Shown here in pieces: positions 12,814 to 30,695 of a stretch of 64,000 bases of DNA; position 1 is the stretch's first letter, and every line of letters begins with the position of its first letter. Position numbers and translations under genes: made by a program. The notes under the pieces were generated by a model. It did no database searches, was not told the DNA's origin, and worked only from the letters and a program-made list of their open reading frames with translations. The DNA is from an uncultured Porphyromonadaceae bacterium (GTDB lineage: Bacteria; Bacteroidota; Bacteroidia; Bacteroidales; Muribaculaceae): the NCBI GenBank assembly GCA_947567425.1, contig CANOLV010000006.1, forward strand, positions 59,238 through 123,237, in the 5' to 3' direction.

Positions 12814-12848
12814 TTGCGAAACTAAATATAATATACCGAATTTCAATT

Positions 12849-13718: not shown

Positions 13719-13728
13719 TTACGCAGTG

Positions 13729-15028: not shown

Positions 15029-16684
15029 ATGGACAATAAATTCGGCAAGAAGCACTATGACGTCATAGTGATAGGAGGCGGTGCCACCGGAGCGGGCACG
15101 GCACGCGACTGCGCTATGAGAGGACTAAAGACATTGCTGGTGGAACGGTTTGACTTTACTGCCGGAGCCACCGGACGCAACCATGGTCTGCTCCATAGCG
15201 GTGCGCGATACGCCGTGACCGATCAGGAGTCGGCAACCGAGTGTATAAAGGAGAACATGATACTCAGGCGCATAGCCAGACACTGCGTGGAAGATACGGG
15301 CGGCCTGTTTGTCACATTGCCGGAAGATGACCTCGACTACCAGAAAAAATTCGTAGAAGCTTGTATGAAGGCCGGAATCAGCGCGGAAGTCCTTGATCCG
15401 AAGGAGGCGTTGCTGATCGAGCCGGCCGTCAATAAAGATATCATAGGCGCTGTCAGGGTTCCTGACGGTGCGATAGACCCGTTCCGCCTGACGGTGGCGA
15501 ATGTCGTTTCGGCACGTCGCGACGGCGCGGATGTGCTTACTTACCATGAGGTGGTGGCTTTTGAACGCGAACAGAACCGCTTGACCGGTGTGCGCCTTCG
15601 CGATACGCGCACGGGTGAGGAGACTGTGGAGCATGCCGACCTTATGATCAATGCCGGAGGAATCTGGGGGCACCATATCGCTGAATTGGCGGGTGTCAAG
15701 GTGAATATGTTCCCGGCGAAGGGCGCATTGCTTATCTTCGGCCACCGTGTGAACGATGTGGTCATCAACCGGTGCCGTAAGCCTGCGGATGCCGATATCC
15801 TCGTTCCGGGCGACACGATCTCGCTGATCGGAACAACCTCCACCCGTCTGCCCTACGACCAGATAGACAATATGGAGGTTACGCCCGAGGAGGTGGACAT
15901 CCTTTTGCGTGAGGGAATCAAGATAGCCCCGTCGTTGGCATATACCCGCATACTTCGCGCATATGCCGGCGTGAGACCTCTTGTGGCCGCTGACAACGAC
16001 CCGTCGGGACGTACTATAAGCCGTGGCATAGTGTGTCTGGACCATGCAACCCGCGACGGTCTGGATGGATTCATCACGATCACCGGCGGTAAGCTTATGA
16101 CTTACCGACTGATGGCAGAGTGGGCCACCGACCTTGCCTGCAAGAAGCTTGGCCGCACTGCGAAATGCCAGACTGCGGAAACTCCGCTGCCCGGATCGGA
16201 GCTTGACAAGTCATACGGGCCGGAGGATCATAAGAAGTCGCATATCATAGAACTCAGCACTGACCAGAAGGCGGCGGAAGGCCGTCATGGTTCGCTGAGC
16301 GAACAGATAGAATATAAGACCGAGGACGACGAGGCTCTCGTATGTGAATGCGAGCAGGTGTCTGTCGGCGAGATCAAGTATGCCATAGAGCATCTCCATG
16401 TTGGCAATCTTATAAATTTGCGCCGCAGGACCCGTATGGGCATGGGTACTTGCCAGGGAGAGCTTTGCGCCTGCCGCGCGGCAGGAATCCTGGTTAACTA
16501 TAACAAATGCGCCGAGCGGACGCTGCGTGACTTATCGTCGTTTATCAACGAACGCTGGAAAGGTATGTATCCGGTGTCATGGGGAGAGACTCTCGTAGAG
16601 GGTCAGTTCATGTCGTGGCTTTATGAAGGGGTGTGCGGAATCGACCAGCTGGCACGTCCTGAGGATTTAATCGATGCAAAATAA
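15029..16684 (+). CDS. glpA: Anaerobic glycerol-3-phosphate dehydrogenase subunit A
   Basis: A 551-residue flavoprotein, close to the 542 of E. coli GlpA. It binds FAD through VIVIGGGATGAGTARD near residues 12-27 and oxidises glycerol-3-phosphate to dihydroxyacetone phosphate. The FAD-dependent oxidase domain covers the first 380 residues (TGRNHGLLHSGARYA is the conserved FAD/substrate segment), and a C-terminal BFD-like [2Fe-2S] domain shows VCECEQVS near 438 and MGTCQGELCACRA near 471. The presence of that C-terminal domain and of glpB and glpC downstream separates it from aerobic GlpD. GlpAB is anchored to the membrane by GlpC and passes electrons to the quinone pool. First gene of glpABC-glpT. 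Confidence 0.95.
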   Translation: MDNKFGKKHYDVIVIGGGATGAGTARDCAMRGLKTLLVERFDFTAGATGRNHGLLHSGARYAVTDQESATECIKENMILRRIARHCVEDTGGLFVTLPEDDLDYQKKFVEACMKAGISAEVLDPKEALLIEPAVNKDIIGAVRVPDGAIDPFRLTVANVVSARRDGADVLTYHEVVAFEREQNRLTGVRLRDTRTGEETVEHADLMINAGGIWGHHIAELAGVKVNMFPAKGALLIFGHRVNDVVINRCRKPADADILVPGDTISLIGTTSTRLPYDQIDNMEVTPEEVDILLREGIKIAPSLAYTRILRAYAGVRPLVAADNDPSGRTISRGIVCLDHATRDGLDGFITITGGKLMTYRLMAEWATDLACKKLGRTAKCQTAETPLPGSELDKSYGPEDHKKSHIIELSTDQKAAEGRHGSLSEQIEYKTEDDEALVCECEQVSVGEIKYAIEHLHVGNLINLRRRTRMGMGTCQGELCACRAAGILVNYNKCAERTLRDLSSFINERWKGMYPVSWGETLVEGQFMSWLYEGVCGIDQLARPEDLIDAK

Positions 16685-16696
16685 GGTATAAGAATC

Positions 16697-17959
16697 ATGA
16701 AATACGATACTATCATCATAGGCGGCGGTATGAGCGGTCTTGTGGCCGGAATCAGATTGAGAAAAGCCGGACAGAAAGTTGCCATCGTATCGGCCGGACA
16801 GAGTGCCCTGCATTTCAATTCGGGCTCGATGTCGCTTTTGGGACATGAGCAGGGAAGGGATGTTGCCAACCCTCTTGTGGCTATAGAACGCCTGCACCCT
16901 GGACATCCTTATAGCAAGCTTGGCGCCGAGACTATCCGCAAGTATGCTTCAGAAGTAGCTCCGCTTTTTGCCGAAGCCGGAGTGACACTGAAAGGTTCAG
17001 CCGAGCGCAATCATTACCGGTTGACTCCGATAGGCATGTTCAAGCCCGCATGGCTCACACTTGAGGGCTATGCTTCGGTAGACGACCCCAAATCGCTTCC
17101 GTGGGGCAAGGTGCTTGTGGTCAATGTGGCCGGTTTTGTCGATTTTTATCCTCAGTTCATTGAGCTTGGTCTCAGCAAGGCGGGTTTGGAGTGTGTGTCG
17201 CGCACGTTTATCCTGCCCGGACTTGAGACTTTGCGCAAGAGCGCTACAGAAATGCGTGCCACCAACATAGCCAGAGTGCTCAAGGATGAAGTGGTTCTTG
17301 AGATGGCGTCGCAGATTAATTCTTATCTGAAAGAGACAGGATCCGACACGGTATTGATGCCGGCCATTCTCGGACTTTATGATGAAAATCCTATACGCCT
17401 GCTTAGAAGCAAGGTGGTTAAGCCGATCCATCTGGTGTCTACTATGCCTATGTCGGTAGGCGGAATGCGGGCCCAGATGAGTCTGTGCAAGTATTTCCAG
17501 AAGCTCGGAGGCACTTACCTGATCGGCGATAAAGTGACTGCCGGACGGTTTGAGGATGGCAGTCTGAAGGCTGTCAGCACTCAAAATCTTGGAGATATGC
17601 CTCTGGAAGCCGATAATTTCATCCTGGCCACCGGCAGCTTCTTCAGCCACGGACTTGAGGCGAATCCGACGTCGATATATGAGCCAATTTTCGGACTTGA
17701 CGTCGAGGCTTCGGAGCATCGTCCGGAATGGTGCGATATGGATATCTATAAGAAACAGAACTATATGCAGTACGGAGTGGTCAATGACGACGATTTCCAC
17801 GTATTCCTTCAAGGAAGGCGGATCGACAATCTGCGGGCGGTAGGTGCCGTTTTGTCCGGTTGCAATTCGATGAAGGAGGAATCGGGCGGCGGAGTTTCGC
17901 TAATGACTTCGTTGAAAGTGGCCGACGATATCTTAAACGGGAAAGGAGGCAAAAAATGA
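16697..17959 (+). CDS. glpB: Anaerobic glycerol-3-phosphate dehydrogenase subunit B
   Basis: A 420-residue flavoprotein subunit, nearly the same length as E. coli GlpB (419). It has an N-terminal dinucleotide-binding motif TIIIGGGMSGLVAGIRLRKA at residues 4-23 and the family pattern LHFNSGSMSLLG and ATGSFFSHGLEA. In E. coli, GlpB binds FMN and couples GlpA to GlpC. It starts 12 bases after glpA and its TGA overlaps the glpC ATG, so expression of the three subunits should be tightly linked. The product is cytoplasmic and peripheral to the inner membrane. Confidence 0.93.
   Translation: MKYDTIIIGGGMSGLVAGIRLRKAGQKVAIVSAGQSALHFNSGSMSLLGHEQGRDVANPLVAIERLHPGHPYSKLGAETIRKYASEVAPLFAEAGVTLKGSAERNHYRLTPIGMFKPAWLTLEGYASVDDPKSLPWGKVLVVNVAGFVDFYPQFIELGLSKAGLECVSRTFILPGLETLRKSATEMRATNIARVLKDEVVLEMASQINSYLKETGSDTVLMPAILGLYDENPIRLLRSKVVKPIHLVSTMPMSVGGMRAQMSLCKYFQKLGGTYLIGDKVTAGRFEDGSLKAVSTQNLGDMPLEADNFILATGSFFSHGLEANPTSIYEPIFGLDVEASEHRPEWCDMDIYKKQNYMQYGVVNDDDFHVFLQGRRIDNLRAVGAVLSGCNSMKEESGGGVSLMTSLKVADDILNGKGGKK
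17941..17950 (+). promoter_or_regulatory. Strong Shine-Dalgarno before glpC
   Basis: GAAAGGAGGC precedes the glpC ATG (17956) by 5 bases. It lies within the last codons of glpB. Such a perfect anti-16S match is unusual in Bacteroidetes, where most starts here lack one. Confidence 0.6.
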
Positions 17960-19209
17960 ATTATCAGGAACAAAACATAAGCGCCAATAATTTTGAGGAT
18001 TGCATCAAATGTACCATCTGTACGGTATATTGTCCGGTAACTCCGTTCAATCCCAATTATCCCGGTCCGAAGCAGGCCGGTCCCGATGGAGAGCGCTACA
18101 GGCTTAAAAAGCCGTATTTTTATGACGAAGCTCTTAAATATTGCCTAAACTGCAAGCGCTGCGAAGTGGCGTGTCCGTCCAATGTCAAGATCGGCGACAT
18201 CATACAGTCGGCGCGTATAAAATATACGAAGTCAAAGCCAAGTCTTCGCGACACGATGCTTGCCAATACGGATTTTGTGGGTACGATGTCTTCGGCATTC
18301 GCTCCCATAGTCAATGCTACTCTGAAGCTTAAGCCTGTAAAGGTAGTGCTTGATTCTGTGCTGAAGATTGACGAACACCGTCAGTTTCCGGCCTATTCGT
18401 CGCAGAAATTCACTACGTGGTACAAGAAGGAGGCCGCTCAAAAGCAGGATCGTTTCGCAAACCATGTGTCGTATTTCCACGGGTGCTACGTGCAGTATAA
18501 CTATCCTCAATTAGGCAAGGACCTTGTCACTGTGATGAATGCCGTGGGCTACGGTGTGCATCTGCTTGAGAAGGAGCGTTGCTGCGGTGTGGCCAAAATC
18601 GCCAACCGTCTTGTCAAGGAGGCTACCCGCGACGCCAATATCAATCTTGCTTCCATAAGGAAGTCTGTAGCCGACAACAGGGTGGTGCTCGGCACGAGCT
18701 CGACATGTACGTTTACGATGAGGGACGAGTATCCGCATCTGCTCCATATCGATAATGCCGACGTGCGCGACGACATAATGCTTGCCACTCGGTTCCTGTT
18801 CAATCTGGTCGACGAAGGCAAGGTGAAGCTCGTGTTCCGCAAGGATTTCCACAAGAGAGTGGCTTACCATACTCCGTGCCACATGGAGAAGCTCGGTTGG
18901 TCCGTCTATTCGACTTCACTGCTTAAGATGATTCCCGGCCTGGACTTCGTGGCTCTTGACTCCGTATGCTGCGGTATCGCCGGAACATACGGCTTCAAGA
19001 AGGAGAACTATAAATATTCGCAGGAGATAGGCTCTGCGCTGTTCAAGCAGATACTCTCTGAGAGGGTCGATGCGGTGGCTACCGACTGTGAAACGTGTAA
19101 ATGGCAGATTGAGATGTCGACCGGCGTACATGTCGACAATCCGATCTCGATCGTGGCGCAGGCTCTCGACGTGGAGGCGACGATGAAGGCAAACGGCGTC
19201 TCAATCTGA
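17956..19209 (+). CDS. glpC: Anaerobic glycerol-3-phosphate dehydrogenase subunit C
   Basis: A 417-residue iron-sulfur protein. Two [4Fe-4S] motifs open it: CIKCTICTVYCPV near residues 16-28 and CLNCKRCEVACPS near 64-76. Two CCG-type domains follow, with KERCCGVAK near 213, HTPCHMEK near 306, DSVCCGIAGTYG near 334 and DCETCKWQ near 375. GlpC anchors GlpAB to the inner membrane and transfers electrons towards menaquinone, feeding anaerobic respiration. The longest frame starts at 17860 inside glpB; the ATG at 17956 is supported by the ATGA overlap with glpB and by an exceptionally good ribosome binding site. Third gene of the operon; glpT follows 58 bases later. Confidence 0.94.
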   Translation: MNYQEQNISANNFEDCIKCTICTVYCPVTPFNPNYPGPKQAGPDGERYRLKKPYFYDEALKYCLNCKRCEVACPSNVKIGDIIQSARIKYTKSKPSLRDTMLANTDFVGTMSSAFAPIVNATLKLKPVKVVLDSVLKIDEHRQFPAYSSQKFTTWYKKEAAQKQDRFANHVSYFHGCYVQYNYPQLGKDLVTVMNAVGYGVHLLEKERCCGVAKIANRLVKEATRDANINLASIRKSVADNRVVLGTSSTCTFTMRDEYPHLLHIDNADVRDDIMLATRFLFNLVDEGKVKLVFRKDFHKRVAYHTPCHMEKLGWSVYSTSLLKMIPGLDFVALDSVCCGIAGTYGFKKENYKYSQEIGSALFKQILSERVDAVATDCETCKWQIEMSTGVHVDNPISIVAQALDVEATMKANGVSI

Positions 19210-19267
19210 TAATTTTCTTAATTCTTAATTATAAACCAGTTAAATACTCATAATAAACAATCTTGTA

Positions 19268-20827
19268 ATGGCTAAGGTAGACATATACGCTAATTGGGAC
19301 CCGGCGGTGACCAAGCGCTTCAAGTCGTGGCAGCTCCGCACTATTTTGGTCTCGATGATAGGTTACGCTATCTATTATTTTGTAAGAAAGAACTTCTCTC
19401 TGGCGATGCCCGGATTGACGGCTCAATACGGCATATCGAACACGAGTTTCGGTATTGTGATCGGTATCGGGTCGTTGATCTACGGCGCGTCGCGTTTTGC
19501 CAACGGCTTTATCGTCGACAGGTTCAGTGCCCGTGCGGTTATGGCCATAGGCCTTCTGCTTTGCGCATTGTCTAACTTCGCGTTTGGTTTCGGTGTCAAT
19601 ATTTCATCGTGGATCACCGGTGTAGAGCAGGGTCCTGACCTTATCAACATGCTTGTGCTGGTGATGGCCATTACGATTGTGCTTAACCAGGCATTCCAGG
19701 GAGTGGGCTATCCTCCGTGCGCGAGATTGCTGCCGAGCTGGATCCACCCGTCGGAACTGGCTACAAAGATGTCGATCTGGAATACGTCGCACTCCATCGG
19801 AGCCGCCGCGGCAGTAGTGGCATGCGGCTATATTATGGGATCGCTCGGAACCGACCTCAGCAACAATCCTGAGATTATCGACACCGTTGCCAAGAATCTC
19901 GGGGTAGACAAGAACAGCGCCGAGGGCATGAAGCAGATACTCCAGTATGCCCAGCATTGGGACGCATGGCGTTGGTGCTTCTGGATTCCCGCGGCTATAG
20001 CCGTATGCGGTTCGCTTTGGCTGTATTTCGGTCTGCGCGACGATCCTCGTTCGGTAGGACTTCCCGAACTTCCCGACACCAACACCGGCAAGACCGACGC
20101 ATCGAAGCAGACCAAAGGCGGCCGTTCGCGTTTCCTCAAGGCCATGGTTTGGTCCAACCGCTGGATCTGGACCCTGTGTGTGGCCAATGTGTTTGTGTAT
20201 GTCATGCGTATGGGTATCCTTGACTGGGGTCCTAAATTCCTGACGGAGTCGCGCGGCATGTCGATCGAGGATGCCGCATGGTCGGTAGCAGTGTTTGAGA
20301 TATTCGCCATCGTTGGTACTATCTTTGCAGGCTGGGCCACAGACCATATTTTCAAGGGTAAGTCGCACAGAATGTGCTTGTGGTGCATGGTGTTTGCATC
20401 GCTGTTCATGGGCATATTCATATTCTTCCCAGGCATGCCTTCATTGATCTCGCTGATGGTGCTTGCATTGGCCGGTTTCTTCATCTACGGTCCTCAGGCT
20501 TTGATCGGCATCGGCTCGGCCAACCAGGCCACTAAGGAAGCCGCCGCCACTGCCAACGGGCTTGCAGGCATATTCGGATATGTCGGATCGTTCCTCTCTG
20601 CAATCGGAGTCGGCATCATCGCCGACCACTATGGATGGAACGTGGTGTTCTATCTGATCATCGGAGTCGGTGTGCTCGGCGCGATAACGTTCCTGACCAT
20701 GTGGATGGCTCCGCGCGACGGTTATGCCCGTGCCCAGAAGTTCTATGCCCTTGAAGCCCACAATGTGGCTGAGGCGGAAGAGAATGTGGCAGACAATTCC
20801 GGCAATGCCGCTGATACCGATGTGTAA
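19268..20827 (+). CDS. glpT: Glycerol-3-phosphate/organophosphate transporter, GlpT-like MFS
   Basis: A 519-residue major facilitator of the organophosphate:phosphate antiporter family. The first helices carry YYFVRKNFSLAMPGL, which matches the substrate-binding arginine region of E. coli GlpT (R45). About twelve hydrophobic segments are present, and GGRSRFLKAMVWSNRW marks the central loop before the second half. It exchanges external glycerol-3-phosphate for internal phosphate across the inner membrane. It is longer than E. coli GlpT (452), with an added hydrophilic stretch between helices near residues 195-225 and a polar alanine/asparagine-rich tail. Its place after glpABC supports glycerol-3-phosphate as substrate, although hexose phosphates cannot be excluded by sequence alone. 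Confidence 0.9.
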   Translation: MAKVDIYANWDPAVTKRFKSWQLRTILVSMIGYAIYYFVRKNFSLAMPGLTAQYGISNTSFGIVIGIGSLIYGASRFANGFIVDRFSARAVMAIGLLLCALSNFAFGFGVNISSWITGVEQGPDLINMLVLVMAITIVLNQAFQGVGYPPCARLLPSWIHPSELATKMSIWNTSHSIGAAAAVVACGYIMGSLGTDLSNNPEIIDTVAKNLGVDKNSAEGMKQILQYAQHWDAWRWCFWIPAAIAVCGSLWLYFGLRDDPRSVGLPELPDTNTGKTDASKQTKGGRSRFLKAMVWSNRWIWTLCVANVFVYVMRMGILDWGPKFLTESRGMSIEDAAWSVAVFEIFAIVGTIFAGWATDHIFKGKSHRMCLWCMVFASLFMGIFIFFPGMPSLISLMVLALAGFFIYGPQALIGIGSANQATKEAAATANGLAGIFGYVGSFLSAIGVGIIADHYGWNVVFYLIIGVGVLGAITFLTMWMAPRDGYARAQKFYALEAHNVAEAEENVADNSGNAADTDV

Positions 20828-20912
20828 GTTAAAAAGGTATAAACAATCATAGTCTATAGTAGAAATGTCCCAGCTTCCCGCGCCGTGTAATGCGGCGCGG
20901 GAATGCAAATTA

Positions 20913-20939
20913 CCGGCAGATATATCATGCCGTTTTTTT
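20913..20939 (+). terminator. Terminator of the glp operon
   Basis: CGGCA (20914-20918) pairs with TGCCG (20928-20932) around a 9-base loop and runs into seven Ts. A stronger hairpin without a T run precedes it at 20875-20903. Confidence 0.65.
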
Positions 20940-20972
20940 AAGCATTGTTGGTTCTCATTTTAACTAAAAATA

Positions 20973-21004
20973 TTTGTACAAAATTAAATGCTTGCATATC
21001 TTTG
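20973..21004 (+). promoter_or_regulatory. Promoter of the phosphodiesterase-SusCD unit
   Basis: TTTG at 20973-20976, 20-base spacer, TATCTTTG at 20997-21004; both match the Bacteroidetes consensus. The transcript should begin near 21010. Confidence 0.78.
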
Positions 21005-21133
21005 TTTATATATCTTATGTTAGATTAAGTTTATGTGCGCAGTCTGTACTGTATTTTAGTTGTAAATGAGGGGACATATATCCCGGATAATTATAAATAC
21101 CAATTCCGAAATATAAAATAACTTAAATATACA

Positions 21134-21892
21134 ATGAAACGAGTATTATTTTCCGCGCTATGTGCATTCATGGCGGTTGCCGGTTTTTCGCAGACCAAGG
21201 TGATAGCCCACCGTGGGTATTGGAAGACCGATGGTTCTGCCCAAAACTCAATCCGTTCGCTTGTCAAGGCTGATTCCATTAAGGTGTTCGGTTCTGAATT
21301 TGACGTATGGCTGACAAATGACTACCATATCGTGGTCAATCACGACAGGGTGTTCAAAGGTGTTAACTTCGAGACTGCTACACTTGACGAAGTGCGCAAG
21401 GTTCGCCTCGACAACGGTGAGGTGGTGCCCACTCTCGACGAGTATCTGGCTAAGGCAGTCGAGATGCCCGACACCCGCCTCATACTTGAGCTGAAGTCGC
21501 TCACAGATCCTACCCGTGAGGATAAGGCCGCAGAGATGATCGTGGCCGACCTTAAGAAGTATGGCCTGCTCGACCGTACAGACATAATATGTTTTTCGAT
21601 CAATGCCTGCATACAGTTTAAGAAACTTTGTCCTGTGGGTGTGAAGATCTACTATCTTGACGGCGACCTGCCTCCGAAAAAGATAGCCAAGCTCGGTCTG
21701 GCCGGTGTGGATTATTCCATGAAGGCTCTGCGCAAGCATCCGGAATGGATCAAGCAGGCGCATGATCTTGGTCTGGAGGTGAATGTATGGACCGTCGACA
21801 AGGAGGAGGATATGAAATACTTCCTTGAGCAGGGTGTGGACTATATAACCACCAATCACCCCGAACAGGCCCTGAAGATGATCGCGAAGTAG
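21134..21892 (+). CDS. Glycerophosphodiester phosphodiesterase, exported
   Basis: A 252-residue GDPD-family TIM barrel with a signal peptide (hydrophobic residues 4-18, cut near GFSQ-TK), so it is periplasmic. Catalytic and metal residues of the family are visible: H26-R27 in VIAHRGYW, E55 and D57 in GSEFDVWL, H70 in VVNHDRVF, E and K in LILELKS, and NVWTVDKEEDM at the C-terminal end of the barrel. It should hydrolyse glycerophosphodiesters such as deacylated phospholipids to glycerol-3-phosphate plus an alcohol. That product is the substrate of the GlpT and GlpABC encoded just upstream. First gene of a unit with its own promoter. Confidence 0.93.
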   Translation: MKRVLFSALCAFMAVAGFSQTKVIAHRGYWKTDGSAQNSIRSLVKADSIKVFGSEFDVWLTNDYHIVVNHDRVFKGVNFETATLDEVRKVRLDNGEVVPTLDEYLAKAVEMPDTRLILELKSLTDPTREDKAAEMIVADLKKYGLLDRTDIICFSINACIQFKKLCPVGVKIYYLDGDLPPKKIAKLGLAGVDYSMKALRKHPEWIKQAHDLGLEVNVWTVDKEEDMKYFLEQGVDYITTNHPEQALKMIAK

Positions 21893-21961
21893 ACTCAGGC
21901 CTATCTCCGACGAATAATATAACCAAATTCAGCAATATCTTATTAACCTTAAAAATTGATT

Positions 21962-23923
21962 ATGAGAAATATATCCAATTATTTATTTTGGATGTTGATG
22001 ACCGTATTCCTGCCGTTTATGATGGTGGGATGCGGCTCGTCGTCTGACGACGATGAACCGAATGTCGACGATTTCGACATTCAGTTCACTCTTCCGTCTA
22101 CTATAGATGTTCCTAAAGGCGGAGAGTTTACGTTCATGCTGACCAACGGCGTTGCACCCCGTACCTCCGACTATCTGGTCATGGAGTCGGCTTCGGGTGT
22201 ATCGTATCTGTGTCCGGTGGTCAATGCTACGGCCACTCAGTTTACGGTAAGTTTTTCCGAGCAGGTGGTCGACGGCAGCTATAAGGTATATCTTAAACGC
22301 GACCAGCGGAAGAAGCTCATAGGACAGACGGCCGTCAACATCATTGACGAGGTTATCGATCCGCAGGATGCAAATGTCTACGGCAAGATTACCGCGGGCG
22401 AGGAGCCTGTGGCAGGTGTCGTTGTGTCCGACGGAGTAGAGGTGACCACCACTGACAGCGAGGGTATCTACCGTCTGAAGTCGGCCAAGAAGTACGGCTA
22501 CGTATTCATGTCGATCCCTTCTGGCTATGAGGCGGTTTCGGAGGGCGTGCTTCCCGTGCTGTATAAGCTTTTACCCTCTGACAGCAAGACAGCCGACAGA
22601 GCCGACTTCAAGCTCAACAAGGTCAGCGGCCAGGAGAATTATAAAGTGTTTTTCCTCGGCGACATGCATCTTGCCAACCGCACAGGCGATGCGGCGCAGT
22701 TCCAGCAGTTTACGGCCGATCTTAACAGCTACACCCAAAGCCACTACGGCGAGAAGATGTATGCCATCACGCTCGGCGACATGACGTGGGACACTTATTG
22801 GTATGACAATGACTATGAGTTGTCTAACTATCTTAAGACGGTCAACAGCCAGATTAAGAACCTTCAGATATTCCACACCATGGGCAACCATGACAATGAC
22901 TTTAAAGCTACATCCGACTTTACTGCCGAGAACCGTTATCGTACCGTGCTTGCCCCGACCTATTACTCCTTTAATATCGGTCAGGTGCACTATGTGGTGC
23001 TTGACGATATTGACTGTAGCAATTATGACGGAACAAAGTCACGTAATTATAAGAAGGGTATTTCTGTAGACCAGCTTTCATGGCTCTCAAAGGATCTTTC
23101 ATTCGTGCCGAAGAGTACTCCGCTCGTGATCACTATGCATGCGCAGGTGTTCAAGCCGGTAAAGACCGGAGGTTTCCGCGTGGATCACGATGCCACAAAC
23201 ACCGCGCAGTTCCTTTCGCTGATCGACGGCTATAAGGTGAACATAGTGACGGGCCATACCCATCAGATCTATAATGTGGTTCCCGAAGAGGATGTGATAG
23301 GCGGACGCGACATATTTGAACACAACGCAGGCGCCATCTGCGCTTCGTGGTGGTGGTCGGGCTATCTGACTCCCGGCATCCATGTCGGCATAGACGGTGC
23401 TCCCGGCGGTTATGCCATCTGGGATATCAAAGGCACTGATATGGAGTGGGTGTTTAAGCCGACCGGAAAGTCTGAAGACTACCAGTTCCGTTCTTACGAC
23501 CTAAACAATGTAAGTTTTTCGGCCGCGGACGTTCCTGACATGCCTTCTAAGGTTGCCGGCGATTTTGAACCTTTCACCAAGGCTTATCCCGCCAACAGCA
23601 ACAACGAGGTTCTTATCAATGTCTGGAACTACAATCCTAAATGGACCATCACTGTAACTACTGAGGGCGGACAGTCGCTCACTCCGACGGCAGTTTGGGC
23701 CTACGACCCATTGCATATTGCCGCTTTGACTGTTCCGAGGTTCAATAACTCCAGTATTAAAGAAGCTCCTAATTTTATAACAGAGGAGTTTACCCACTTC
23801 TTCAAGGTCACGGCTCCGGATGCCGACACCGATCTGACCATCACGGTCAAGGATGAATTCGGACATACATGGACTGAGCAGATGCAGCGTCCGAAGGCAT
23901 TCTCGATCGAAGCTTATAAATAG
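21962..23923 (+). CDS. Surface lipoprotein with calcineurin-like phosphoesterase domain
   Basis: A 653-residue predicted lipoprotein: hydrophobic signal, then lipobox MVGC with C24, followed by SSSDDDE, the acidic pattern that sends Bacteroidetes lipoproteins to the cell surface. An N-terminal beta-sandwich pair (residues about 35-215) precedes a calcineurin-type metallophosphoesterase with all metal motifs: GDMHL near 234, TLGDMTWD near 270, GNHDND near 308, MHAQ near 389 and TGHTHQ near 430. A C-terminal domain (about 500-653) resembles the MetallophosC type. The enzyme class cleaves phosphomono- or diesters. The ATG at 21962 is preferred over a TTG two codons earlier. The neighbouring GDPD and SusCD suggest it trims phosphate-containing ligands at the surface. 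Confidence 0.88.
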   Translation: MRNISNYLFWMLMTVFLPFMMVGCGSSSDDDEPNVDDFDIQFTLPSTIDVPKGGEFTFMLTNGVAPRTSDYLVMESASGVSYLCPVVNATATQFTVSFSEQVVDGSYKVYLKRDQRKKLIGQTAVNIIDEVIDPQDANVYGKITAGEEPVAGVVVSDGVEVTTTDSEGIYRLKSAKKYGYVFMSIPSGYEAVSEGVLPVLYKLLPSDSKTADRADFKLNKVSGQENYKVFFLGDMHLANRTGDAAQFQQFTADLNSYTQSHYGEKMYAITLGDMTWDTYWYDNDYELSNYLKTVNSQIKNLQIFHTMGNHDNDFKATSDFTAENRYRTVLAPTYYSFNIGQVHYVVLDDIDCSNYDGTKSRNYKKGISVDQLSWLSKDLSFVPKSTPLVITMHAQVFKPVKTGGFRVDHDATNTAQFLSLIDGYKVNIVTGHTHQIYNVVPEEDVIGGRDIFEHNAGAICASWWWSGYLTPGIHVGIDGAPGGYAIWDIKGTDMEWVFKPTGKSEDYQFRSYDLNNVSFSAADVPDMPSKVAGDFEPFTKAYPANSNNEVLINVWNYNPKWTITVTTEGGQSLTPTAVWAYDPLHIAALTVPRFNNSSIKEAPNFITEEFTHFFKVTAPDADTDLTITVKDEFGHTWTEQMQRPKAFSIEAYK

Positions 23924-23970
23924 AATATTTAGAGTTAACCAATAATTTAATTAAAACCAGATGCAAATTT

Positions 23971-26900
23971 ATGAAAGTAACTAAGTCCTTAATTCTAAGT
24001 CTGTTGCTGGCGGTGATGAGCTTCGTGCCCCTTGCCGCGCAGAACAGAACTGTGTCGGGCACAGTCGTCGACACCATGGATGAGCCATTGGCAGGCGTTA
24101 CCGTAATGCAGGTTGGAAGCCAAAACGGCGGCATGACCGACATGGACGGAAAGTTCACGCTTCAGGTTCCATCCGATGCTGTTGAATTGAATTTCACTTA
24201 CGTGGGATTCAAGGCTCAGAGAGTAAAAGTTGCTCCGGGCGAAAATGACATCCATGTAGTGATGCATGAGGATGCCGTGATGCTCGACGAGACAGTAGTG
24301 ATCGGCTACGGTACGCAGAAAAAGGTCAACTTGACCGGTGCCGTTGCCAGCGTAGGTTCAAAGGATCTTGAAAACCGTGTGTCGCACTCAGTGACCAACA
24401 TGCTTCAGGGTTCAGTGGCCGGTCTTAACATTACGACGTCTTCAGGTGCTCCCGGCCAGTCCGCAGCTATCAATGTACGTGGTACGACATCGATTAACGC
24501 TACCAATCCGCTGGTGCTTATCGATGGTGCTGAAGGAGAGCTCACCAATGTCAATCCTAACGACGTGGAGTCAATCTCTGTGATCAAGGATGCATCCGCA
24601 GCCGCTGTTTACGGAGCCCGCGCCGCATTCGGTGTAATTCTCGTGACCACCAAATCCGGTGCTGAGAAGGACGGCAAGGCCACAGTTCGCTATAGCGGGC
24701 GTGTTGGATGGGAAGAGCCTACCACTTCCACTGACTATGAGACTACCGGTTATTGGTCGGTCTACACGATGAACTTGTTCCAAATGGAGACCCGTGGCAC
24801 AAAGTATATCAATTATACCGACTACGATATGCAGCAGCTTCTTGCCCGCGTGCATGACAAGACTGAGCATCCCGACCGTCCATGGGTAGTTGAAGACACC
24901 CGCAACGGCCGTCGTCAGTGGGTATATTATGGCAACAATGACTGGTGGCACCAGCTTTACAATGACAAGCACCCGACTACTCAGCATAATGTGTCGATCA
25001 GCGGTGGAACAAAGGATATAAAGTACTATGTGTCCGGCGGACTTGATTGGCAGAAGGGTATTCTTAAGGAGAATCCTGATATTTTCCGTAAGTATAACTT
25101 GCGCTCGAAGATTGATTTCCGTATCAATAAATATGCTACATTCTCTAACAATACGTCTTATTATTCTTCCCAGTATGAATATCAAGGTGATGGAAGTGTC
25201 GAGAATACTCTTGCATACAGTGCGGCGCACGCTCTTCCGATATTCCCGATGAAGAACCCTGACGGTTCATGGTTGAGGGATACTCCATATTTCTCTTCAT
25301 CAAGCTACAGTGTTGCAAACGGTCGCCATATTTTGGCCGGCGAAGGCTCACACCGTAATGTCAAGCGCACCACCGACTTCTCAAATACAAGCCGCCTGGT
25401 GATCACTCCGTTCAAGCAGTTGAGCATTACAGCCGACTTCACATACCGATTCTTCCAGACTCGCAATACAAGCCGTTCGCAGAACATGACATATCGTGTA
25501 TATCCTGACGGACCTCTGCAGTCGTATGTGTCAGGTGCCGGTGAAGACCGTCTTGATGAAAGTGTCAACACCCGCAACTATATGTCGTATAACGTATACG
25601 CAACGTATACCGACACTTTTGCCGGTGCTCATAATCTTACCGTTACAGCCGGCTATAACAACGAATCCCTTAAGATTAAGAACATCGGAGTTGCTGCCGG
25701 AAATCTTTCCTCCTCTTCACTTGATGACTTGAATCTTGGAACAACTACCGCTTCTGACGGCAATTACAGCGGTGGTCAGAATGAATACATGCTTTCCGGT
25801 ATATTCGGACGTATCAACTATGACTACAAGGGACGTTATCTTTTTGAAGCCAGTGGACGTTACGACGGTTCTTCCAGATTCGGACGCGGCAACCGTTGGG
25901 GCTTCTTCCCGTCGGCTTCTGTGGGATGGCGTATTTCCGAGGAATCGTTCTTCTCACCGGCGCGCGACGTCGTTGACAATCTGAAGGTTCGTTTCTCTTA
26001 TGGTAGCCTCGGAAACCAAAATGTATCGTCTTATTATACGTTCTTGCGTCTTATTTCAGTTAATGACTTCGGTTCATTTACTTTTGGAGACGGTTCGGTT
26101 GGCAAGTATTCTTCTCTTGGAGCACCTATAGCTTCAGACCTTACTTGGGAAAAAGCTAATCAATATAATCTTGGTATCGACTACTCGATGCTTAATGGTA
26201 GGTTGAACTTTACCGGCGACGTATATATACGCGACACAAAGGATATGCTTACAGCAGGAGTAGCCCTTCCTGCAGTTTATGGTGCAGACGTGCCTGATAT
26301 GAACACTGCCGATCTCCGCACTAAAGGTTATGAACTTGCCATTAGCTGGCGCGATAACTTGCAACTGTTTGGCAAAACTCTTGACTATAGTATTGGATTC
26401 AATCTCAGCGACTACCGCAGTGAAATTACTAAGTATGATAACCCCAATAAGACTTTTGCAAAGGATTATTATGTAGGTATGCGTATAGGTGAAATTTGGG
26501 GATATGTTACGGATGGTCTGTATGCCACAGATGAGGAAGCTCAGGAGTATACCAAGAATCTCGCATTCTACAGTGGTCTTACCGGTAACCTGACCGGTGG
26601 ATGGAAGGCCGGTGACCTTAAGTTTATCGATGTCGATGGTGACGGAGAAATCGGTATAGGAAAAGATACTGCAGATAAACCTGGCGACCGTAAGATTTTG
26701 GGAAATTCGCTTCCAAGTCTTCAATACGGTATTACAGGAAGTTTGCGTTATTTAGGATTTGATGTTTCTGTATTCTTCCAGGGAACTGGTAACCATTATT
26801 GGTATCCTGAAAATGAGTCGTTCACGTTCTGGGGCCCCTACGGCTATCCTATGAACTCGTATCTGCCTACTAACTTTGTCAGCAACGTGTGGGCCGAGGA

Positions 26901-27234
26901 TAATCCCGGTGCATATTTTGCCCGTCCACGTTCTAATATAGCTACTGGCGGTTATCTCCGCTATGTCAATGACCGCTATCTGCAGAATATCCGCTACCTC
27001 CGCTTCAAGAATCTTACAGTGGGCTACACTATTCCTGCCAATATTACCAAGAAGGCCGGCATTGATCAGGTGCGTGTTTATTTCTCCGGAGAGAATCTCT
27101 GCTATTGGTCTCCTCTTAAGAAGCATTCAAAGTATATCGATCCAGAAGGTGCCATCAAGCGAAGCGGTTCATACAACCGTATGTTCTATCCTTGGCAGAA
27201 GACCTTTATGTTTGGTATAGACTTAACATTCTAA
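23971..27234 (+). CDS. SusC/RagA family TonB-linked outer-membrane transporter
   Basis: A 1087-residue TonB-dependent transporter. Signal peptide (residues 1-24, ending PLAAQ), carboxypeptidase-like domain with GTVVDTMDEPLAGV and DGKFTLQV, the SusC-type TonB box region DETVVIGYGTQKKVN near 105-120, a plug with NVRGTTSINA and VIKDASAAAVYGARAAFG, and a 22-strand type barrel ending in GIDLTF. Together with the SusD that follows, it forms a lid-and-barrel import pump for oligomers too large for porins, driven by TonB-ExbBD. The cargo cannot be read from sequence. The genes around it point to glycerophosphate-containing molecules rather than a plain polysaccharide, since no glycoside hydrolase is in the unit. 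Confidence 0.95.
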   Translation: MKVTKSLILSLLLAVMSFVPLAAQNRTVSGTVVDTMDEPLAGVTVMQVGSQNGGMTDMDGKFTLQVPSDAVELNFTYVGFKAQRVKVAPGENDIHVVMHEDAVMLDETVVIGYGTQKKVNLTGAVASVGSKDLENRVSHSVTNMLQGSVAGLNITTSSGAPGQSAAINVRGTTSINATNPLVLIDGAEGELTNVNPNDVESISVIKDASAAAVYGARAAFGVILVTTKSGAEKDGKATVRYSGRVGWEEPTTSTDYETTGYWSVYTMNLFQMETRGTKYINYTDYDMQQLLARVHDKTEHPDRPWVVEDTRNGRRQWVYYGNNDWWHQLYNDKHPTTQHNVSISGGTKDIKYYVSGGLDWQKGILKENPDIFRKYNLRSKIDFRINKYATFSNNTSYYSSQYEYQGDGSVENTLAYSAAHALPIFPMKNPDGSWLRDTPYFSSSSYSVANGRHILAGEGSHRNVKRTTDFSNTSRLVITPFKQLSITADFTYRFFQTRNTSRSQNMTYRVYPDGPLQSYVSGAGEDRLDESVNTRNYMSYNVYATYTDTFAGAHNLTVTAGYNNESLKIKNIGVAAGNLSSSSLDDLNLGTTTASDGNYSGGQNEYMLSGIFGRINYDYKGRYLFEASGRYDGSSRFGRGNRWGFFPSASVGWRISEESFFSPARDVVDNLKVRFSYGSLGNQNVSSYYTFLRLISVNDFGSFTFGDGSVGKYSSLGAPIASDLTWEKANQYNLGIDYSMLNGRLNFTGDVYIRDTKDMLTAGVALPAVYGADVPDMNTADLRTKGYELAISWRDNLQLFGKTLDYSIGFNLSDYRSEITKYDNPNKTFAKDYYVGMRIGEIWGYVTDGLYATDEEAQEYTKNLAFYSGLTGNLTGGWKAGDLKFIDVDGDGEIGIGKDTADKPGDRKILGNSLPSLQYGITGSLRYLGFDVSVFFQGTGNHYWYPENESFTFWGPYGYPMNSYLPTNFVSNVWAEDNPGAYFARPRSNIATGGYLRYVNDRYLQNIRYLRFKNLTVGYTIPANITKKAGIDQVRVYFSGENLCYWSPLKKHSKYIDPEGAIKRSGSYNRMFYPWQKTFMFGIDLTF

Positions 27235-27249
27235 TAACTAATGATTAAT

Positions 27250-29022
27250 ATGAAAAAATATATATTGCCATTTGCGGTTCTTTTGTCTATGGGATTTGTG
27301 TCTTGTGATGATTCACTTGATCTGAATCCGAAAGACCGCGTTGGAGAATCTGAATATTTCAGGACTGAAAGCGACCTTAAGCTGTTCACCAATCCTTATT
27401 ACAATAATATGCTTAATAAGGAGCCTTACGATGATCAGAGCGACTTGGTCGTATGCCAGAATCTTTCGAATGAAATGCGTGGCGGTACATTCCGTTCTAT
27501 TCCTAAGTCGGGTGGCGGATGGACATGGACAGATTTGCGTCGCATCAACTCTCTGTTGGCTCGTATAGACCGTTGCGAGGACGAAGATGCAGTGGTTAAA
27601 TACACGGCATTGTCCCGCTTTTTCCGTGCATATTTCTATTTTGAAAAGGTAAAGCGCTTTGGCGATGTGCCCTGGTATGACAAGGAACTTGGTTCGGCAG
27701 ATCCGGATCTATATAAGTCTCGCGACTCTCGTGAACTTGTTATGACCAATATGATTGCCGATGTTGATTACGCCATCGCTAATCTTCCTGATGAAAAGAC
27801 ACAGACCGATGTGCCTTATCGTGCGACAAAATGGGCAGCTATGGCATTGAAGGCTCAATTCTGCTTGTATGAGGGTACATTCCGTAAATATCATGGAGTT
27901 ACTCTTGAAGGCCACGATTATAAGTATTATCTCGAGCAGGCGGTTGATGCCGCGAACCAGCTTATGTCAGGAAATAAGTACAAGATTTATTCAAACGGAA
28001 ATCCCAACACTGCTTATCTGGAAATGTTCCGTGCGGAAAATGCAAACCCTGACGAATATATTTTGGCTATTAAGTTTGATGCCAAGACTCAGACTTTCCA
28101 CGATGCATACGGTTTTTCGTGTGTACTCTCCCGTGGTATGCCCGGTTATACCCGTAAGTTCGTCAATATGTATCTTATGAAGGATGGTACGGCATTCACC
28201 GATAAACCGGGATGGCAGGAGATGACATATGCTCAGGAAATGCAGAACCGTGACCCGCGTTTGCTTCAATCCATACGTTTCCCTGGATTTAAGTTGAATG
28301 GCAAAGCCGTAAAACCTAATCTTTCTGAGTCCGTTACCGGATACAATCCTATCAAATTTGTTCAGGATGGTATTACTCGAAGCGATAATTCTACTTGCGA
28401 TATTCCTGTTTACCGTTACGCCGAGGTGTTGTTGAACTATGCCGAGGCAAAAGCTGAGCTTGGTACTCTTACGCAGGATGATCTTGATAAGTCGATAAAC
28501 TTGCTTCGTGACCGTGTAGGTATGGCACATCTTGTTATGAGTTATGCAAATGCAAATCCTGACCGCTATTTATCTGATCCCGAGACTGGTTACAGTAACG
28601 TGGAAGGAGCGAATAAAGGTGTGATTCTTGAGATTCGTCGTGAACGGGCAGTTGAGCTTGCTCAGGAAGGTTTCCGTTGGAGCGACCTCGTGCGTTGGAA
28701 AGCCGGACTTTGTGTAAATCAGGATATTACCGGTATGTATTTCCCAGGACCTGGCGAATATGACTTTGATGGTGACGGAGCTGCGGATATTATTCTTTAT
28801 GGAGCAGGGCAGCAAAAGCCGACAGCGGCAGACGGAGTTCCTGTATATCAGATAGGTTCTGATGTATTTTTGACTGACGGTGATAAGGGTTACACCAATT
28901 ACCATCATAACATTACTCACGTATTCAATGAAGGCCGTGATTATTTCTATCCTATACCTTCCGATGAAATATCGCTATATCTGGAGAGAAATCCCGACTT
29001 TAAGCAGAACCCTGGCTGGTAA
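27250..29022 (+). CDS. SusD/RagB family nutrient-binding lipoprotein
   Basis: A 590-residue SusD-like lipoprotein: signal peptide, lipobox with C19 followed by DDSLDLNP, the standard SusD beginning. TPR-like helices show RFFRAYFYFEKVKRFGDVPW, and the C-terminal part has PVYRYAEVLLNYAEAKAE and RRERAVELAQEGFRWSDLVRW, both hallmarks of the family. It acts as the surface lid over the SusC barrel. The first ATG in the frame is at 27241, but MKKYILP at 27250 gives the normal signal peptide. It begins 15 bases after susC. Confidence 0.94.
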   Translation: MKKYILPFAVLLSMGFVSCDDSLDLNPKDRVGESEYFRTESDLKLFTNPYYNNMLNKEPYDDQSDLVVCQNLSNEMRGGTFRSIPKSGGGWTWTDLRRINSLLARIDRCEDEDAVVKYTALSRFFRAYFYFEKVKRFGDVPWYDKELGSADPDLYKSRDSRELVMTNMIADVDYAIANLPDEKTQTDVPYRATKWAAMALKAQFCLYEGTFRKYHGVTLEGHDYKYYLEQAVDAANQLMSGNKYKIYSNGNPNTAYLEMFRAENANPDEYILAIKFDAKTQTFHDAYGFSCVLSRGMPGYTRKFVNMYLMKDGTAFTDKPGWQEMTYAQEMQNRDPRLLQSIRFPGFKLNGKAVKPNLSESVTGYNPIKFVQDGITRSDNSTCDIPVYRYAEVLLNYAEAKAELGTLTQDDLDKSINLLRDRVGMAHLVMSYANANPDRYLSDPETGYSNVEGANKGVILEIRRERAVELAQEGFRWSDLVRWKAGLCVNQDITGMYFPGPGEYDFDGDGAADIILYGAGQQKPTAADGVPVYQIGSDVFLTDGDKGYTNYHHNITHVFNEGRDYFYPIPSDEISLYLERNPDFKQNPGW

Positions 29023-29055
29023 TAGTAAATCTAAAAGTAACAATCTGAAATCGAT

Positions 29056-30591
29056 ATGAAAATTAAACATTATATGATGGCCGCGCTCGTGCTGATGTCT
29101 TCATGCATGATGTCGAGCTGTAAGGACGACGACGATAATGGCGGTGTAGCCAAAGCTGTCCTTGCGAGCGCTTCTTTTCTGAATTTCCAGGAGACTTCAG
29201 CCACGCCCCAGTTGATCACGGTGTACTCCGATGCAAACTGGGTGGCAGAGGTGCCTGAATGGGTGAGCATATCGCCTGCTACCGGCGGTGCCGGAACTAC
29301 GGAAGTCACCGTATCGGTGACCGACAATCTCCGCGAGGGTACTCCGGACAATCCCCGTAAGGCTGATCTTATATTCCGTGGCAAGTCGCTTGCAAGCCGT
29401 GCATTCGTGACAGTGTCGCAGGCCGGTGACAAATACCGCGACTGCAAGGACTATACAGTGGAACAGCTGTATGGTGCCGCGGACGAGACCTGCATGTCGA
29501 TCACGAATGCTTTGATTACAGCTGTAACGGCTAATGGATTCGTGGTGACTAACAGCGACTATAAGTCATATATGCTCGTGACAAGCGATGCCGCTGTCAA
29601 TAAGGGTGACGTTGTGGATGTTCTATGTCAGAAGTTTACCGACAGCCAGTCGCTCGCGTATGTCGAGGCCGACGAAGTGACGGTAGTTTCTACAGGAAAT
29701 GTGGTTAACTTCCCGGAACCTGTCAATATCACTGAAAAGCTGGACGAATATAACTCTGACAAGCGCGAATATGTCGCAGTGGAAGGTTTGTTGAATGGTA
29801 CCAACGTCACGGTGACCGGTGCGAAACTTTCGATTTCTCTTGAGAATCTTCCTGCTTCGGTTGACTTAAGTGCCGTTAACGGTCATATCGTCAGAATGAA
29901 GGGTTACTTCGCCGGCGTGGCCGCTCCTGTGATGAAGCTTAATTATGCCGATATTGACGATCTCGGAGAGGCACAGACTATCTACTTCTCAGATGATTTG
30001 GAATGGCTTGCTCCGTGGTCGGCAGTAGGTAATGGAGAACCTGCCGGTCAGACAGTGGAGAAGAATGCCGACGACAATGCCTGCCAGCTTGCAACGCCGA
30101 AGATCGACGGTGTATCTGCTTATGACGAACTCGTTAACAGAGGTTATGCGATACCTGTGGTACACGCCGCCGGCAAGTCGGACCGTGCTCCGGGTGCGCA
30201 GACATACTTGCAGACAAACTACTTGAAGTTTGGTCTGACGGCTTATCAGTGCGGACTGACTCTTCCGTCGATAAGCGGAATTGAAGCCGGTGCTGCGGTT
30301 CACGTTTCGTTCCAGTGGTGCCCGATGGTACAGGGATCAGGAACTAAGGACCCGACAACTCTTGTGGTTGTAGTGGCTAACGGTGACGAAGAGATGATGT
30401 TTGATGTGGCTCCGCACGGAATCGGCAAGGAGGATGCACTTAAGTGGGTTGATGCCGACGTTGTGCTGACAGGCGCTACAGTCAACGAGAATACCAAGAT
30501 CACGATCCGCAACTCGGACGACCAGTGGCCGCACACAAGCACCCGCCGTTGGTTCATCGATAATATCAAGGTTTACAGTCCGATGCTCTAA
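29056..30591 (+). CDS. BACON-domain surface lipoprotein
   Basis: A 511-residue lipoprotein; either C17 or, more likely, C22 is the lipidated cysteine, since C22 is followed by the acidic surface-export pattern KDDDD. Residues about 38-122 form a BACON domain (PQLITVYSDANWVAEVPEWV), a carbohydrate- or mucin-binding type immunoglobulin-like fold. A middle domain (about 128-285) looks like the OB-type DUF5689 fold, and the last 220 residues are beta-rich with WFIDNIKVYS at the end, as in jelly-roll binding modules. There is no catalytic motif, so it is probably a surface ligand-binding protein for the SusCD pair. Last gene of its transcription unit; a strong hairpin follows. Confidence 0.83.
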   Translation: MKIKHYMMAALVLMSSCMMSSCKDDDDNGGVAKAVLASASFLNFQETSATPQLITVYSDANWVAEVPEWVSISPATGGAGTTEVTVSVTDNLREGTPDNPRKADLIFRGKSLASRAFVTVSQAGDKYRDCKDYTVEQLYGAADETCMSITNALITAVTANGFVVTNSDYKSYMLVTSDAAVNKGDVVDVLCQKFTDSQSLAYVEADEVTVVSTGNVVNFPEPVNITEKLDEYNSDKREYVAVEGLLNGTNVTVTGAKLSISLENLPASVDLSAVNGHIVRMKGYFAGVAAPVMKLNYADIDDLGEAQTIYFSDDLEWLAPWSAVGNGEPAGQTVEKNADDNACQLATPKIDGVSAYDELVNRGYAIPVVHAAGKSDRAPGAQTYLQTNYLKFGLTAYQCGLTLPSISGIEAGAAVHVSFQWCPMVQGSGTKDPTTLVVVVANGDEEMMFDVAPHGIGKEDALKWVDADVVLTGATVNENTKITIRNSDDQWPHTSTRRWFIDNIKVYSPML

Positions 30592-30619
30592 TAGTCTCAT
30601 AACCAATTTTACATAGGTG

Positions 30620-30660
30620 CGGGGGCCTGTCGATTTGCGGCAGGCCCCTGCTGTCATTTT
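30620..30660 (+). terminator. Terminator of the SusCD unit
   Basis: CGGGGGCCTG (30620-30629) pairs with CAGGCCCCTG (30641-30650) with one G-U pair, and TTTT follows at 30657-30660. Confidence 0.7.
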
Positions 30661-30680
30661 ATGGCTTGGGATTTTATGTT

Positions 30681-30688
30681 TAACTTTG
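30681..30688 (+). promoter_or_regulatory. -7 element of the ATP-grasp-like gene
   Basis: TAACTTTG matches TAnnTTTG and ends 7 bases before the ATG at 30696; no good -33 element is seen. This predicts a transcript with almost no leader. Confidence 0.55.
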
Positions 30689-30695
30689 TGGCGTA

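Follow-up and report, generated by a model that had tools for sequence, protein, structure and literature searches.

The window, which is the whole stretch of DNA that was analyzed (64,000 nucleotides; positions 59,238 to 123,237 of contig CANOLV010000006.1, here termed C6), belongs to an assembly of 2.92 Mb in 57 contigs from an uncultured Porphyromonadaceae bacterium (GCA_947567425.1; family Muribaculaceae). It carries nine genes on the (+) strand, in which glpA-glpB-glpC, for the oxidation of glycerol-3-phosphate (G3P), and a GlpT-like transporter of the OPA family are followed by genes for a glycerophosphodiester phosphodiesterase (GDPD), a calcineurin-type phosphoesterase (metallophosphoesterase, MPE), SusC, SusD and a BACON lipoprotein. 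This locus, and the recurrence of its glp-type genes beside the MPE-SusC-SusD-BACON core in other genomes, are the subject of the present analysis. All nine genes were found at the places and in the families proposed by an earlier, sequence-only reading of the window, as judged by coordinates, Pfam and NCBIfam. Among named records, the closest one to share this gene order was a metagenome-assembled genome (MAG) titled Muribaculum sp. NALB_7813_2 (locus L069), whose MPE was 83% identical. The nine genes are as follows.

15029-16684, (+) strand: glpA, anaerobic glycerol-3-phosphate dehydrogenase subunit A (NCBIfam, 874 bits; cut-off 425)
16697-17959, (+) strand: glpB (NCBIfam TIGR03378, 412 bits; cut-off 174)
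17956-19209, (+) strand: glpC, ATG start (NCBIfam TIGR03379, 591 bits; cut-off 280)
19268-20827, (+) strand: OPA-family MFS transporter, GlpT-like (family matches, PDB relative, alignment)
21134-21892, (+) strand: GDPD, presumed periplasmic glycerophosphodiester phosphodiesterase (PF03009, E 8.8e-22; PDB 3no3, E 4.3e-68)
21962-23923, (+) strand: MPE, calcineurin-type phosphoesterase, presumed surface lipoprotein (MetallophosN-Metallophos-MetallophosC)
23971-27234, (+) strand: SusC, TonB-dependent outer-membrane transporter (TIGR04056, 914 bits)
27241-29022, (+) strand: SusD lipoprotein (PF07980)
29056-30591, (+) strand: BACON lipoprotein, presumed surface binding protein (PF13004, 25.9 bits; cut-off 25)

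The products of glpA, glpB and glpC all exceeded the NCBIfam equivalog cut-offs, as required of a three-subunit GlpABC. The start of glpC is most likely the ATG at 17956, which would overlap glpB by 4 bases, and a TTG start at 17860 was disfavored against it. The transporter remained under both GlpT equivalog cut-offs (274 against 632.55 bits, and 250 against 748 bits). Its best solved relative was the GlpT structure 1pw4, and in the alignment it retained the Arg/His/Arg positions, which we take to be substrate-binding. Thus, the glpABC-glpT operon of the sequence-only reading was borne out for the three dehydrogenase subunits, and for the transporter at the level of the OPA family. Among the relatives described below, TIGR00712 was passed by the GlpTs of L075 and L093 and failed by those of L105, L130, L097 and L069.

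The GDPD passed the PF03009 cut-off; by eye, a His-Arg-Gly motif (AHRG) lies near its start and its signal peptide is plain, without a lipobox. At the signal-peptide end of the MPE, SusD and BACON proteins, a Cys precedes acidic or polar residues, also by eye. The MPE residues D236, H238, D275, N311, H312, H395, H434 and H436 were invariant across 33 aligned sequences, and these D-H, D, NH(D), H and H-H positions presumably represent the metal-binding motifs. Only MetallophosN, Metallophos and MetallophosC were matched by the MPE in Pfam, with no PhoD-named match. The BACON protein could be aligned with 17 relatives. The susC and susD genes are adjacent, as in the pair by which a polysaccharide utilization locus (PUL) is recognized. 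A glycan-active enzyme (glycoside hydrolase, polysaccharide lyase or carbohydrate esterase), which a PUL should also contain, was not found here: no CAZyme Pfam was matched by the ten proteins of 15029-31817 or by ten flanking open reading frames (ORFs) that were scanned, one of them on the wrong strand.

The surroundings of the core were compared in 80 loci, the best 80 of 164 confirmed MPE relatives, which are not independent of each other and include contigs of genomes G152, G119, G144, G013, G105, G026 and G024. As controls, 40 SusD regions were hand-picked among the listed, highest-scoring ones of 615 SusD matches that 14 genomes gave; two of them (L178 and L187) share one contig, L184 holds two SusDs, and L185 holds a related MPE-BACON unit. 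The four genes of the core stood together in 69 of the 80 relatives, and in 63 of the 66 loci with at least 7 kb beyond the MPE (out of 76 with a clean MPE frame). The core was present in Bacteroides, Phocaeicola, Alistipes, Prevotella, Maribellus, Mariniphaga, Proteiniphilum and many rumen Bacteroidales. In the fetched flanks, a GlpT-like transporter was observed near the core in 28/80 loci, against 0/40 controls; a GDPD in 17/80 (seven of the 17 as MPE-GDPD fusions), against 1/40; and a G3P dehydrogenase in 9/80, against 0/40 (Fisher values, with kinship ignored, of 1.6e-6, 0.004 and 0.02, respectively). The sole control GDPD match, in L187, comes from the genome of L130, in which the core is present as well. 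At least one gene of the glp set was found in 35/80 loci, against 1/40 controls, and the dehydrogenase, GlpT and GDPD occurred together in 7/80. The GlpT-like gene was the same-strand upstream neighbor of the MPE in 19/76 loci, and 11 of these genes overlap the MPE frame or end within 20 bases of it. MPE-GDPD fusion genes were present in 7/76 loci, with the Pfam domain order confirmed for the three that were scanned (L125, L073 and L101).

The dehydrogenase near the core was of two types. The three-subunit GlpABC was found in the window, in L069 and in Muribaculaceae HAN052, and probably belongs to L127 as well, where GlpA alone is in view before the contig ends. A single-subunit GlpD-like enzyme was found in Maribellus, Mariniphaga and Proteiniphilum, and also in a Dysgonamonadaceae MAG, whose enzyme was the only one of the four scanned by family profiles. 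The order glpABC-GlpT-GDPD-core was common to the window and L069, and the order GlpD-GlpT-(HAD)-GDPD-core, with HAD denoting a HAD-type phosphatase, to L074, L075, L077 and L083. In L105, a GlpR-type regulator was accompanied by GlpD-GlpK-GlpF-GlpT-HAD-GDPD-core, with GlpK identified by Pfam and GlpF by eye. L127 showed core-GDPD-GlpA, whereas in L093 (Proteiniphilum) the order was regulator-GlpD-GlpT-porin-secreted protein-core, the secreted protein being a homologue of a 323-aa protein of the window (see below), with GlpK and GlpF divergent beyond the BACON gene. HAN052 (L039, L063, L067 and L102) holds the full gene set in another order, plus a DeoR regulator; its L102 reads core-GDPD, with glpABC and the transporter divergent. 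The HAN052 set is joined by GH31, GH36 and GH89 and by a DUF5009-like acyltransferase (a weak match), and so the absence of glycoside hydrolases claimed in the sequence-only reading applies to the window and not to this relative.

A tree of the MPE, built by a quick method, comprised 77 rows (76 of the 80 loci plus the window; four without a single clean frame were left out). When rows with cut flanks and no match were excluded (n = 57, 57 and 54, with 28, 18 and 10 positives, the window included), the presence labels of the GlpT-like gene, GDPD and G3P dehydrogenase needed at least 13, 10 and 5 changes, respectively, which argues that the glp link is not one inherited event, the changes counting losses as well as gains. 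A LacI-type regulator-like ORF (cluster c13, by eye) was seen 5' of GlpT-MPE-SusCD in L097, L114, L119, L130, L132, L134 and L144, and several of these loci hold look-alikes of 2-keto-3-deoxygluconate (KDG) kinase, 2-keto-3-deoxy-6-phosphogluconate (KDPG) aldolase and a hexuronate transporter further on (by eye).

In an order-wide survey, the MPE profile was matched at E 1e-150 or better in 5/295 evenly drawn genomes, the window's included; at most four candidates per genome were scored, and 5/295 may be an undercount. Three carriers lie outside the genus of the window and were not chosen for context, and one of the three repeats the glp link. This is G388 (L215), with a HAD protein, a DeoR-type regulator and GlpD-GlpT next to a divergent MPE, followed by SusC and a SusD of a different Pfam type (SusD-like_2). 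In G273 the core is present, with no glp gene within 20 kb. In G373 (L214), a divergent MPE is accompanied by an alkaline phosphatase and a glycerate kinase, with no SusCD match within 20 kb; its neighbors at 9281-13855 suggest a phosphoglycerate-type substrate for some MPE members.

Because these functions are repeatedly found side by side in distant relatives, the region can be read as one feeding system. We consider it likely that its substrates are molecules containing glycerophosphodiesters, and most likely polymers or oligomers whose size would keep them from passing a porin. The steps are inferred from the gene identities, the conserved metal-binding residues of the MPE, the signal peptide of the GDPD and the neighbors. 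The BACON and SusD proteins would bind the substrate at the cell surface, where the MPE would cut a glycerophosphate-containing polymer or oligomer, and SusC, powered by TonB, would bring the pieces across the outer membrane. In the periplasm, the GDPD would free G3P by exo-cleavage; the OPA transporter would swap it for phosphate across the inner membrane, and GlpABC would oxidize it to dihydroxyacetone phosphate, with the electrons passing to the quinone pool. Phosphate esters in surplus may be the substrate of the HAD protein.

The glp set also includes two genes that lie 5' of glpA and encode a NagD-type HAD phosphatase and a secreted protein of 323 aa. Together with the possible control sites, they are located as follows.

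12783-12813, (+) strand: promoter-like site of the HAD unit (pattern scan; conserved in the close relative L069)
12809-12823, (+) strand: 15-base box TTTTGTTGCGAAACT, possible operator common to HAD and glpA (exact match)
12849-13718, (+) strand: NagD-type HAD phosphatase, without a visible signal peptide (Pfam Hydrolase_6/Hydrolase_like)
13729-14697, (+) strand: secreted 323-aa protein (working name "propeller", a name not based on fold; conserved copies)
14870-14900, (+) strand: promoter-like site of the glpABC-transporter unit (pattern scan; conserved in L069)
14896-14910, (+) strand: second exact copy of the 15-base box, at the glpA promoter
about 20873-20906, (+) strand: hairpin 3' of glpT, possible end of the glp unit (fold z-score -4.33)
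20973-21004, (+) strand: promoter-like site of the GDPD-SusCD unit (pattern scan; conserved in L069)
30619-30651, (+) strand: terminator-like site after the BACON gene and SusCD unit, 14 pairs (terminator scan)

The HAD phosphatase adjoins glp-side genes in G013, G144 and HAN052. The secreted 323-aa protein had no Pfam match, and its best sequence relative in the PDB reached only E 0.3. Copies 67-81% identical were found in L069, L093, L096, L067 and L192; in the last four the identity was 67-76%, and the MPEs of the same genomes were about 49-59% identical. The protein adjoins the HAD gene in G013, and stands directly 5' of the MPE in L093 and L096. A minus-strand ORF at 13693-14664 was rejected as a gene, as it is antisense to this conserved protein.

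As judged by the promoter-like sites, the hairpin after glpT, the terminator-like site and the gene spacings, the region reads as three adjacent units, namely HAD-secreted 323-aa protein, glpABC-transporter and GDPD-MPE-SusC-SusD-BACON. The gaps within the last unit are 63, 47, 6 and 33 bases. A scan with the pattern TTTG-N17-23-TANNTTTG, which we assume to be the promoter motif of the Bacteroides type, gave nine sites in the window against 1.02 expected; one lies inside glpT, and three lie immediately 5' of HAD (12783), glpA (14870) and GDPD (20973). None of 200 shuffles was as stable as the hairpin after glpT (folded with DNA parameters), which has no T-run and is absent from the list of the terminator scan. 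As the hairpin and a promoter-like site lie between glpT and the GDPD gene, the latter was rejected as a member of the glp operon in the window. A 374-aa ORF (30696-31817) lies beyond the terminator-like site, has no Pfam or NCBIfam match and was rejected as a member of the locus; it has a counterpart in L069, 58% identical.

Exact copies of the box TTTTGTTGCGAAACT occur twice in the whole 2.9-Mb assembly, at the HAD and glpA promoters. Both are retained in L069, and 13/15 bases are retained 5' of glpA in HAN052; with up to two mismatches, the box was not found in the glp regions of other genus members. Genome-wide, a search at up to two mismatches gave seven sites against 10 for a reversed-pattern control, and therefore only the two exact sites carry weight. 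They suggest that the HAD and glpABC units may be under common control. One operator for all three units was rejected, as the box is present at two of them only. The regulator of both glp-side units is perhaps a DeoR-type protein encoded on contig C41, called GlpR-type from its position only; the counterpart in HAN052 matched AgaR best, below the cut-off.

Within the proposed feeding locus, the substrate may tentatively be specified as a glycosylated poly(glycerol phosphate), the teichoic acid of neighboring Gram-positive bacteria. The MPE would then act as a surface endo-teichoicase, SusCD would import oligomers, the GDPD would serve as an exo-teichoicase, and the glycerol phosphate would be respired, while accessory alpha-glycosidases, such as the GH31, GH36 and GH89 enzymes of HAN052 or the GH31 of L097, would strip alpha-sugars that would block the GDPD. 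In the parts of PMC7086022 that bear on this, the wall teichoic acid of Bacillus subtilis bears alpha-glucose, the glycerophosphodiesterase GlpQ halts at glycosylated units, and glycosylated wall teichoic acid is cut from within by PhoD; intact lipoteichoic acid, with units of opposite stereochemistry, is not cut by GlpQ. The likeness to the GlpQ/PhoD teichoicase pair (PMC7086022, in part) is one of working only, in that poly(glycerol phosphate) could be processed by an exo-glycerophosphodiesterase working in series with an endolytic phosphodiesterase; here the MPE is of the MetallophosN/C type with no PhoD match, its activity is predicted only, and a Gram-negative import system is added. Wall teichoic acid would fit better than lipoteichoic acid, as its units would yield sn-glycerol-3-phosphate, and this boldest reading is put forward because an alpha-glucosidase and an endo-phosphoesterase would solve the problem of units at which the GDPD is blocked. 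A GH31 gene lies 3' of the core in L097, and GH31 was found near the core in 3/80 loci against 0/40 controls, too few to weigh. Matches to GH36, GH89, GH92, GH123 and sulfatases (1, 1, 2, 1 and 5 of 80) did not stand out from the controls (1, 1, 1, 0 and 3 of 40), and therefore do not reveal what the substrate is.

A small or host-derived substrate, such as glycerophosphocholine, other deacylated phospholipids or the glycans of glycosylphosphatidylinositol (GPI) anchors (inositol-phosphate-glycerol with alpha-glucosamine and mannose), is compatible with the feeding locus and not exclusive of it. For glycerophosphocholine, nothing more than GDPD, GlpT and a G3P dehydrogenase is needed, whereas SusCD generally implies a larger substrate, and small diesters should not need it. 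GPI glycans could fit the GH89 and DUF5009-like acyltransferase of HAN052, GH123 before the core (G092 and G119/L071) and a divergent GH92 (G105/L099), but each such family is confined to one or two loci among the 80. We regard this version as rather doubtful. Phospholipid headgroups and other glycans with glycerol phosphate are further candidates, as are the phosphoinositol headgroups named in the sequence-only reading.

The region could also be a counterpart of the phosphate utilization systems (PUS) of Flavobacterium, supplying phosphorus and not carbon from mixed organic phosphate esters. The work on PUS and PusCD is reportedly that of Lidbury and colleagues in the ISME Journal. There, phosphate depletion induces SusCD complexes whose genes are grouped with those of phosphomonoesterases, phosphodiesterases and organophosphate transporters of the inner membrane (PMC8115612). 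The grouping of SusCD with a phosphodiesterase and an organophosphate transporter is found here too, by families only; the HAD phosphatases fit, as does the alkaline phosphatase beside the MPE in L214. PUS were recognized by their induction under phosphate depletion, however, while the present locus has partners for G3P oxidation. The use of glycerol carbon is indicated by the recurrent G3P dehydrogenase and, at a small number of loci, by GlpK, GlpF and DeoR-type regulators, and phosphate scavenging therefore appears unlikely. In the passages of PMC8115612 on PusCD, no adjoining G3P dehydrogenase is described, and its main text has "GDPD" zero times and "glycerophospho" once. Passages of a paper on PhoB in B. 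fragilis (PMC3547664) contained nothing relevant to the locus.

Several observations weigh against a single feeding system. No glp-type gene was found in 45/80 loci, some of them through contig ends, and 9/28 GlpT-like genes were not same-strand upstream neighbors. GlpA and GlpD are homologous (28-31% identity), and are thus different enzyme types and not unrelated ones; the GlpD of L105 is below its NCBIfam cut-off (273 against 360). Among 13 regions of MPE paralogues, a GDPD was present in two and a GlpA or GlpT match in none. The box TTTTGTTGCGAAACT was not found 5' of the GDPD gene, and thus gives no sign of joint control of all units. The genome of the window has a second GDPD-family gene, on contig C53. 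Within the genus, the core SusD was found at 65% identity or more in 6/14 genomes, and the core stands beside glp genes in only two of these six, the window's genome and G152. In the other four (G092, G119, G144 and G013) the glp-side genes are apart from the core, on one contig in G092 and, in the other three, on the evidence of separate contigs; in G092 and G119 the GDPD gene follows glpT without the core. GlpA was present in 9/9 near-complete genus genomes. A ComF-like gene stands next to glpA in G013, G057, G037 and G106, and in the first two a DeoR-type regulator does so as well. The window's genome has this regulator/ComF-like pair on a different contig, where no GlpA occurs within the 3.8 kb that were fetched. 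As the halves are apart in four of six carriers and glpA lies beside the regulator/ComF-like genes elsewhere in the genus, the linkage in the window looks like a recent, local rearrangement.

From these genus data, one could argue for chance neighbors, with a SusCD unit for some ordinary glycan and a housekeeping glp operon lying side by side but sharing no task. Against this, the core is accompanied by these functions in other families too, where the dehydrogenase is of another type, and the GDPD gene appears to sit inside the SusCD unit; chance is thus considered improbable. The chain of binding, hydrolysis, import and oxidation drawn in the sequence-only reading gains from the recurrence beside the core in separate clades, with two dehydrogenase types and gene fusions, and is supported in part. 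That reading would be refuted if the two units did not stay together in relatives, and here the outcome is mixed: the halves stay together in several other families, whereas in the genus they are together in two carriers and apart in four. A nuclease-like MPE with SusCD importing oligonucleotides is highly improbable, since the recurrent partners are GDPD, GlpT-like transporters and GlpD or GlpABC, and nothing nucleotide-specific was seen among the neighbors looked at (their annotation was not exhaustive), even if nucleic acids were suggested for some phosphodiesterase-bearing susC/D loci in part of PMC6499787.

Further genes of note were observed in the genus. In G092 and G119 (L189-L191), the glp genes and GDPD are followed by radical SAM/SPASM and sulfatase-superfamily proteins (STPSR in L189) and, further on, by another SusC and a SusD-like ORF (by eye), with a GH85-like protein in G092. 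This second SusC/SusD-like pair is a possible SusCD partner of the glp operon. In L193 (G013), another MPE paralogue at 7182-10464 is directly followed by a GDPD and a predicted esterase.

Canonical G3P respiration through glpABC-glpT is known from E. coli and others. The locus resembles it in that GlpA, GlpB and GlpC exceed their cut-offs, and differs in lying beside an outer-membrane SusCD unit and in the transporter scoring under the GlpT cut-offs. A survey of susC/D loci is reportedly that of Lapebie and colleagues. As given in part of that survey, 576 of 14,713 susC/D loci without CAZymes, sulfatases or peptidases hold phosphodiesterase Pfams (PMC6499787). The present locus shares with these the combination of SusCD with PF00149-type proteins and no CAZyme; nucleic acids were suggested there for some (PMC6499787), whereas the context here points to glycerol phosphate. 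Among the matches listed from titles and abstracts of the open-access literature (subscription papers lying outside), there was no SusCD locus for teichoic acid or glycerophosphodiesters, nor SusCD-phosphoesterase loci joined to G3P oxidation. SusCD with phosphoesterases is thus already known, and its joining to G3P oxidation genes is apparently new. Bacteroides thetaiotaomicron may offer a tractable relative: according to part of PMC10434189, BT0438-BT0454 hold an alpha-N-acetylglucosaminidase, SusCD, DUF5009 and a protein with a calcineurin-like phosphoesterase C-terminal domain in one stretch, and BT4724-BT4727 a SusCD pair near a GDPD gene.

Hundreds of SusCD loci have phosphodiesterases and no assigned substrate, with nucleic acids proposed for some (PMC6499787, in part). 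The recurrent link to G3P oxidation provides a specific, testable alternative for one subset of them, and would mean that SusCD-organophosphate systems reach beyond the supply of phosphorus to that of carbon and energy. Should teichoic acid be the substrate, gut Bacteroidales would draw nutrients directly from the cell walls of Gram-positive bacteria, and the architecture of a glycan locus would have been turned to a non-glycan backbone so that Bacteroidales can feed on the walls of other bacteria.

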